Assembly (NCBI GenBank): GCA_943704525.1 | Contig: CALSCQ010000498.1 | Location: 1-20,453 of the forward strand | From: Pigoraptor vietnamica | Lineage: Eukaryota; Opisthokonta; Filasterea | DNA: 20,453 bases | Direction: 5' to 3' | Part shown: positions 2,049 to 20,453 of the stretch, in pieces | Layout: each line of letters starts with the position of its first letter | Numbering within the stretch: the stretch's first letter is position 1 | Notes under the pieces: model-generated | What the model was told of the DNA's origin: nothing | What the model saw: only the letters and a program-made list of their open reading frames with translations | Database searches by the model: none | Translations under genes and position numbers: made by a program

Positions 2049-2523
2049 TCTCACCGCGTTCGCTGAAAACCGTCTCTGATTAATTACAGTATTTGCGAAC
2101 GGCTTATTTCGACGAAGGAGGGCAAACAGAGTGTTCCCACACGCGACACTTATGCCCACTATATATCGTGCACCAGCCCACCTCGCTTCTAAGCCGAGCA
2201 AGAGCACCGTCTCTCTCTTGGGAACACCTTTGTACTTTGTTCGCAATTTTTTTTGAATGACAGAACGGGGGGTGATTTTTCGCGCCCCAATTTGACCGAG
2301 ATCTCGCTTATTTTGCCTCGAAATTTTGGCGCCAGCAAGGTTTTGAACATCACACACACACACACCCACTCACTCACTCTTGCCGTGCGGTTTAGCACTG
2401 GTGTCGCTGACATTGTAGCGAGGGTGGAAGTGACGCGTGCATGTCGGTAGTTCTGTGTGTGCGTGTGCGTAAGAAGATGAAGCCCTGAGAAGGGGGTGTT
2501 ACTTGAAGCGATTGGGACGCAAA
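2049..2523. promoter_or_regulatory. Divergent TPX2-RTTN intergenic promoter
   Basis: These 475 bases separate two start codons pointing away from each other. The centre (about 2240-2340) is AT-rich and carries two E2F-like cores inside a composite element. A TATA-like TATATA lies at 2160-2165; on the minus strand it is about 115 nt upstream of the TPX2 ATG. A short CA tract (2351-2365) separates the core from the RTTN side. Transcription starts are not visible from sequence. Confidence 0.6.
2278..2333. promoter_or_regulatory. Composite E2F-like element (copy B)
   Basis: Reading the plus strand: TTTCGCGCC (2278-2286) fits E2F consensus TTTSGCGC. It is followed by the reverse complement of CGAGATCTCGGTCAAATTGG (2287-2306), then TTTTGCC (2311-2317), TCG, and AAATTTTGGCGCC (2321-2333), a second E2F-type site. 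The 20-mer and the 13-mer recur in the HIRA/H2A.Z promoter at 18273-18292 (18 of 20 identical) and 18456-18468 (identical). The sequence matches are directly visible; the E2F role is inferred. Confidence 0.6.
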
Positions 2524-17697: not shown

Positions 17698-17746
<49 letters not shown>

Positions 17747-17937: not shown

Positions 17938-18215
17938 CGCCGCGACGGCAAGAGTGCCACACTGCCTCAGAGACGGTTGAGGCAGTGGCGGCCCTTAGCC
18001 CATCGAAGGTTGGAGCGGTGTAACACACAGATATGCAGGTCACGGCATCCAACTTCCCGCAAGGCGAAGCAGCAAACGTAGCAATGACGAAGACGGGCTC
18101 TGTGAGGGATGAATGTGACAAGGAAGACACCGTCGAGCACGAAGGAAGCGCTGGTATGGCGTTAAGATGGACGTGAAAGCGTTTGCACGGGTCCAACAGG
18201 CCAAACGAGAGCCAC

Positions 18216-18225
18216 ATCACGTGAT
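18216..18225. promoter_or_regulatory. ATCACGTGAT palindrome
   Basis: A perfect 10-bp palindrome with CACGTG core sits 6 bases before an E2F-like TTTCGCGCC. Nine of its bases recur at 86-94. Confidence 0.4.
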
Positions 18226-18230
18226 ACAAC

Positions 18231-18305
18231 TTTCGCGCCAGAAAAGTTTACGAGAGTTCGCTTGAATTGTAACGAGATTTCGGTAAAATTGGACAGCGCG
18301 CCAAA
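18231..18305. promoter_or_regulatory. Composite E2F-like element (copy C, first part)
   Basis: The block begins with TTTCGCGCC (18231-18239), identical to 2278-2286. CGAGAGTTCG (18251-18260) and CGAGATTTCG (18273-18282) repeat a CGAGA-NN-TCG motif also present at 2297-2306. The second opens CGAGATTTCGGTAAAATTGG (18273-18292), matching the reverse complement of 2287-2306 at 18 of 20 positions. GCGCGCCAAA (18296-18305) follows, as a GGCGCG core follows in copy B. Confidence 0.6.
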
Positions 18306-18443: not shown

Positions 18444-18468
18444 TTTTGCCGTTTCAAATTTTGGCGCC
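18444..18468. promoter_or_regulatory. Composite E2F-like element (copy C, second part)
   Basis: TTTTGCC (18444-18450), five spacer bases, then AAATTTTGGCGCC (18456-18468). The same two blocks in the same order, with a three-base spacer, lie at 2311-2333. CCAAT boxes lie immediately upstream. The site is about 170 bases before the H2A.Z ATG. Confidence 0.6.
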
Positions 18469-20256: not shown

Positions 20257-20320
20257 GTGTGTGTGCGCGAGTGTGCGGGCGTTCTCTGTTCCCACCGACG
20301 CACATCGGCGCACTTGCACG

Positions 20321-20453
<133 letters not shown>

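Follow-up and report, generated by a model that had tools for sequence, protein, structure and literature searches.

Two divergent gene pairs on one contig of Pigoraptor vietnamica raise the question of what their intergenic regions have in common and which proteins may read it. The stretch of 20,453 nucleotides that was analysed as a whole is called the window here (assembly GCA_943704525.1, contig CALSCQ010000498.1). The original prediction had placed in both regions a composite element, an E2F/DP site together with a partner reading CGAGA-NN-TCG and AAATTGG, that would serve spindle, centriole and chromatin genes.

Shared sequences of two gene pairs

The gap between the TPX2-like gene and RTTN measures 475 bp, and that between the HIRA-like gene and H2A.Z about 702 bp. 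Pfam matches at these genes were TPX2_importin (E 1.3e-12 with joined exons), RTTN_N (7.5e-6) and histone H2A (4.7e-20). The gene to the left of H2A.Z is presumably HIRA; WD40 and HIR1-type families were matched somewhere in the exon set that contains it and are assigned to no single gene. A sequence check of the window found each of the named sequences, i.e. the shared 13-mer, the inverted block with 18 of 20 identities, the shared 9-mer and TTTTGCC, exactly where it had been described. The TTTSSCGC cores TTTGGCGC and TTTCGCGC are likewise in place. The start codons and elements are as follows.

2048, minus strand: first base of the TPX2-like start codon
2278..2286, minus strand: E2F-type core GGCGCGAAA, 11-bp spacer to the palindrome
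2287..2306, minus strand: block 2, the palindrome CGAGATCTCG (2297-2306) with an AT-rich arm, between TPX2-like and RTTN
2297..2315, plus strand: the palindrome of block 2 with its other arm; either strand has a matrix score of 22.7
2311..2317, plus strand: TTTTGCC, probably no functional part
2321..2333, plus strand: block 1, AAATTTTGGCGCC, an extended E2F-type site, its TTTGGCGC separated by 18 bp from the palindrome
2524, plus strand: first base of the RTTN start codon
17937, minus strand: first base of the start codon of the gene that we take to be HIRA
18231..18239, minus strand: E2F-type core GGCGCGAAA, 12-bp spacer to the palindrome copy at 18251
18251..18269, plus strand: an extra palindrome copy CGAGAGTTCG with arm, absent from the original prediction, 22 bp before the next copy
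18273..18292, plus strand: block 2, CGAGATTTCG with an AT-rich arm, between HIRA-like and H2A.Z
18298..18305, plus strand: E2F-type core GCGCCAAA, 15-bp spacer after the palindrome
18456..18468, plus strand: block 1, AAATTTTGGCGCC, an extended E2F-type site
18640, plus strand: first base of the H2A.Z start codon

In both gaps the palindrome lies close to the midpoint between the start codons, about 10 bp away in the first (centre 2296.5, midpoint 2286) and about 6 bp away in the second (18282.5 and 18288.5). Chance cannot explain the inverted block, since a 20-mer with at least 18 identities appeared in none of 400 Markov-resampled pairs of the two gaps, whereas a shared word of at least 13 bases appeared in 6 of them, so that the 13-mer alone is not beyond chance. 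Two more shared 12-mers in opposite orientation (2068-2079 with 17967-17978, and 2375-2386 with 17945-17956), near the HIRA start and inside the TPX2/RTTN gap, may be due to chance. Long CA/TG repeats occupy 2921-2961, 17699-17745 and 20316-20453, within introns and at the contig end.

The palindrome across the genome

We searched the genome (32,526,649 bases in 1,395 contigs) for the palindrome and found the bare decamer CGAGATCTCG 448 times, compared with 6 for the same word reversed, a control that keeps base content and does not keep dinucleotide content. By this control the extended site, CGAGATYTCGGTMAAATTGG with up to three mismatches, was present 87 times (3 reversed) and GGCGGGAAA 669 times (355 reversed). 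Among the 15 distinct bare decamers in loci L036-L050, which are the first listed places, 5 are in coding sequence, as are some places of the E2F-type word AATTTTGGCGC.

A matrix was built from 92 arms of listed pairs, where the arm letters played no part in the choice while the pairs had been chosen for AT-rich spacers, and it gave a unit consensus of about CGARATYTCG-S-W-A-A-A-W-T-T-W. In each of the two window promoters, both strands of the core have good matrix scores, which places arms on both sides of it. Moreover, two exact cores stand within 40 bp of each other in 18 cases (0 in the control), at steps of 21 (four times), 22, 27, 29, 30, 31, 31, 32, 33, 33, 36, 36, 37, 37 and 40 bp, and none of these 18 pairs has a step below 21 bp. 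With degenerate cores the counts were 125 and 126 on the two strands (11 and 19 in the controls). The lower limit on the step is a firmer fact than helical phasing. A strict phasing of 10.5 bp was rejected, as the signal was only weak (resultant 0.27, p 0.02 against a uniform distribution from 20 to 40) in a sample of 53 pairs, namely those among 80 listed pairs whose spacers are AT-rich.

Hundreds of copies could also be expected from a dispersed repeat or the end of a mobile element. In the loci examined, however, the likeness ends at core and arms, the cores are degenerate and the flanks unrelated, so we regard such an origin as highly improbable. On the flanks of these loci, a repeat and a duplicated promoter were both rejected; the original prediction had set the latter aside too.

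Where the palindrome lies relative to genes was determined for loci L006-L035 and L051-L070. They cover 50 of the 87 extended places and, once repeats had been removed, amounted to 53 sites. Genes were called with a rough coding score of our own, initially trained on MCM exons and then widened iteratively. At an exon threshold of 14, 5 sites were coding, 10 had a single neighbour called and 38 had both; of these 38, 30 were divergent, 5 and 1 were tandem and 2 were convergent. The divergent share differs from one half with a binomial p of 0.0002, or 0.0015 when counted by locus (26 of 34), and it shifts with the threshold (27 of 40 at 10; 25 of 29 at 18). In control loci, 264 of 1,200 noncoding positions were divergent. 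The sites also tend towards the middle of the gap, with a mean offset of 0.134 compared with 0.25 for a uniform distribution (26 loci, one site per locus; p 0.0009 with 80 bp at each gap end excluded). Thus, the extended palindrome mostly lies between head-to-head genes and near mid-gap. The original prediction had proposed to look for a bias of this kind towards head-to-head promoters. Among bare decamers only 3 of 7 noncoding sites with both neighbours called were divergent, and no bias is evident in so small a sample.

The genes beside the palindrome are of many kinds. Two Pfam scans, covering 53 and 62 exons next to extended sites, matched 62 and 35 families, respectively. The 25 families listed from each scan include WASH-4, V-ATPase H, P4-ATPase, ATP synthase B, DEAD helicase, dyskerin, CDC48_N, KIN17, kinases and kinesin, together with the ciliary-type families DPCD, TPH and CFA20. 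The neighbours are therefore mainly of a general housekeeping kind, with ciliary and cell-cycle genes among them, and they do not form a spindle or chromatin list. TTTSGCGC lies within 60 bp of 6 of the 53 extended palindromes, 2 of these in the window, and is absent from the other 47. The palindrome as such is thus not the spindle, centriole and chromatin element that had been envisaged.

A mid-gap position between divergent genes, multiple copies and broad gene classes would also suit a boundary (insulator) or replication-origin element that is no promoter element, comparable to the BEAF sites of flies. In the part of the BEAF study available to us, clustered CGATA sites lie by cell-cycle genes and BEAF competes with DREF (PMC2605929), which fits this reading too. 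The measurements made here agree with either role; an E2F partner at the spacing of one palindrome arm, as found below, fits a promoter more naturally, and we consider a boundary or origin function rather unlikely.

Other promoter words are found around the palindrome. X-box-like words such as GTTGCCGCGGTAAC and CGCCATGGCAAC, presumably RFX-type, lie within 200 bp of it in L018, L022, L024, L025, L029, L051 and L059, and a loose X-box-like word is denser within 150 bp of the palindrome than farther away. The palindrome-like words GGGGTAC and GTACCCC stand near the element in 7 of 44 promoters and in none of the reversed sequences (L008, L011, L012, L028, L046 and others). Near palindromes and E2F sites, TCACGTGA is frequent, with the same counts (7 of 44, 0 reversed), and occurs at 18218-18225 of the window and at many loci.

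Composites with an E2F core

E2F is conserved across eukaryotes, while its DNA-bound partners vary by lineage and are mostly known from animals, plants and yeast. The E2F_TDP family (PF02319) had four matches at three places of the genome, one on C137, two on C294 and one on C1174 (best E 1.9e-27). The two matches on C294 (30490-31571) are about 0.85 kb apart on one strand and possibly belong to a single protein that, like E2F7/8, has two DNA-binding domains. The 13-mer AAATTTTGGCGCC, by its letters an extended E2F-type site, is found 5 times genome-wide (0 reversed) and AATTTTGGCGC 42 times in the 32.5-Mb genome (1 reversed). TTTTGCC, which had been counted as part of the composite, precedes none of the three other genomic 13-mers and is dropped.

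A genome scan for the composite with spacing allowed, which the original prediction had proposed as a check, found CGAGNNNTCG followed within 30 bp by GCGSSAAA at 92 places (24 in the control) and by TTTSSCGC, the other E2F orientation, at 57 (28 in the control). The spacer measured 11-13 bp in 26 of the 92, where about 9 would be expected if spacers were uniform (p 4e-7), and the dyad-equivalent spacer was 7-9 bp in 12 of the 57 (p 0.008) or 6-8 bp in 14 (p 0.0009); the 11-13 range was picked after the first list had been seen, and the second list had likewise been seen before scoring. In 109 loci, taking either orientation of the core, 11 distinct GCGSSAAA composites were found compared with 1 in reversed sequence, numbers that give no rate because the loci had been picked for palindromes, E2F sites or MCM genes. 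Their spacers are 6, 11, 11, 12, 12, 13, 13, 13, 15, 17 and 27 bp, so that 7 of 11 fall within 11-13 as scored. The composite is real, being in excess genome-wide and having a preferred spacing; the pairing of an E2F-type site with a second, sequence-specific CGAGA..TCG partner carrying an AT arm is thereby supported.

In the window, composites span 2278-2306 (spacer 11), 18231-18260 (spacer 12) and 18273-18305 (spacer 15). The spacers of 11 and 12 bp identify the shared 9-mer, TTTCGCGCC, as the partner E2F core in both promoters. When two palindromes stand at their minimum step, 21 bp, the gap between them is likewise 11 bp, so that the E2F core occupies the place of a second palindrome.

The MCM genes served as an independent check, as they had been picked as E2F targets before their promoters were seen. 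The analysis covered seven upstream stretches, of which one has only 589 bases; that of the eighth gene fell outside its contig. The seven contain TTTCCCGC 8 times in 12,595 bp (0 reversed) and TTTGGCGC only 2 times (0 reversed). Upstream of the MCM gene at L083 (C283), whose exons we take to resemble MCM7, there are three palindromes and two TTTCCCGC sites with spacers of 11 and 13 bp. On C657 a palindrome core (63297-63306) is followed 12 bp beyond by GCGGGAAA, at the start of L089; it lies 3.3 kb before the first MCM-domain exon and is a candidate MCM promoter element. The remaining stretches have E2F sites without a strong adjoining palindrome, or neither. Of the seven stretches, one thus clearly has the composite and a second probably does.

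The named genes with composites at the 11-13 spacing are TPX2|RTTN, HIRA|H2A.Z and one MCM gene, and those at L016, L026 and L108 are not among the genes named; a composite with spacer 6 (L014) adjoins a P4-ATPase gene. A link to the cell cycle may therefore hold for the composite subset.

The two motifs might simply meet by chance, as independent and common promoter motifs without joint function. Most palindromes have no nearby E2F core and most AATTTTGGCGC places no palindrome (a strong one lies within about 150 bp at only 2 of 23 non-window places examined of 40), and TCACGTGA, GGGGTAC and X-box-like words are enriched by the palindrome too, as in promoters generally. A chance meeting would, however, yield no spacer peak such as that at 11-13 bp in the genome scan and in the loci, and we consider it improbable.

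The reading that we prefer, and hold to be probable, is that both gaps are bidirectional promoters with two separate modules, with E2F standing one arm from the palindrome in a minority of promoters. Module A would be the E2F/DP site TTTSGCGC, frequently in the form AAATTTTGGCGCC here. Module B would be the palindrome CGAGATCTCG, flanked on one side or both by AT-rich arms and bound by a putative protein that is most simply a symmetric dimer. Alone or in arrays, it would sit near the middle of many head-to-head promoters and open chromatin or recruit polymerase in both directions. In the minority, the E2F core would take the next palindrome's place, about 11-13 bp from the core; this distance of one arm suggests direct contact between the two proteins and joint binding, and E2F/DP docking there would add cell-cycle control. 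The palindrome thus points to a putative E2F partner protein.

A stricter form of this proposal is a two-protein code. In it the dimer would contact both grooves of CGAGATCTCG (the CG core and the AT arms), with E2F/DP docking at a distance of exactly one arm; where an E2F core stood in place of the next palindrome, a general bidirectional organiser would become a cell-cycle switch. We regard it as a rather long shot. Copies in the hundreds, a clear footprint and a spacing preference relative to E2F make the palindrome a direct handle on an E2F partner and on the question of how divergent gene pairs are switched together.

Relation to known promoter systems

The vertebrate CGCG element TCTCGCGAGA drives divergent transcription from housekeeping promoters, some of which have several copies (PMC6192621), and the BEN domain of BANP binds AAATCTCG most strongly in vitro (PMC10206803), according to the portions of these papers available. 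Like the Pigoraptor palindrome, the CGCG element is a ten-base palindrome of the half-sites CGAGA/TCTCG, but with the half-sites in the opposite order. The BANP-preferred AAATCTCG is contained in the 18273 copy, which reads CGAAATCTCG on the minus strand, and occurs 16 times in the loci (0 reversed). TCTCGCGAGA itself is absent from both gaps and has only 2 copies in 242 kb of loci, compared with 60 of CGAGATCTCG in the same loci, which were partly chosen for CGAGATCTCG. The divergent setting of the CGCG element is matched, in gene layout, by the 30 of 38 extended sites described above; among bare decamers 3 of 7 are so placed. A search for the BEN domain (PF10523) at E 0.1 gave no match here and likewise none in the control genomes. 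Should the dimer prove to be a BEN protein of the BANP kind, the CGCG-type bidirectional promoter system of animals would be joined by a relative from outside the animals or from their base.

Drosophila DRE/DREF and BEAF use CG-centred palindromic or clustered sites at housekeeping and cell-cycle genes, as seen here; a BEAF dual-core is common to the oppositely oriented cdk7 and snf (PMC2605929, in part). Their sequences differ from the palindrome and the BEAF spacers, as far as given there, are far longer. TATCGATA is absent from the 109 loci, and CGATA occurs once and not at all in the two window gaps. In the fly PCNA promoter the DRE adjoins E2F sites. The element works, by analogy, like the CGCG/BANP and BEAF/DREF systems, and we claim membership in neither. 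By the titles of part of the matching papers, CGAGATCTCG has not been reported as a motif, and no such motif was found in the available parts of a chromatin study of unicellular holozoans (PMC12221973) and a sponge promoter study (PMC4773876).

Classical E2F/DP sites of replication genes are matched here by those upstream of the MCM genes, but have no partner palindrome at one-arm spacing, which is the feature of the present case. Words of the CDE/CHR (DREAM) type, counted at any distance, are present in the two gaps with 2 and 1 copies of TTTGAA and 0 and 2 of TTCGAA.
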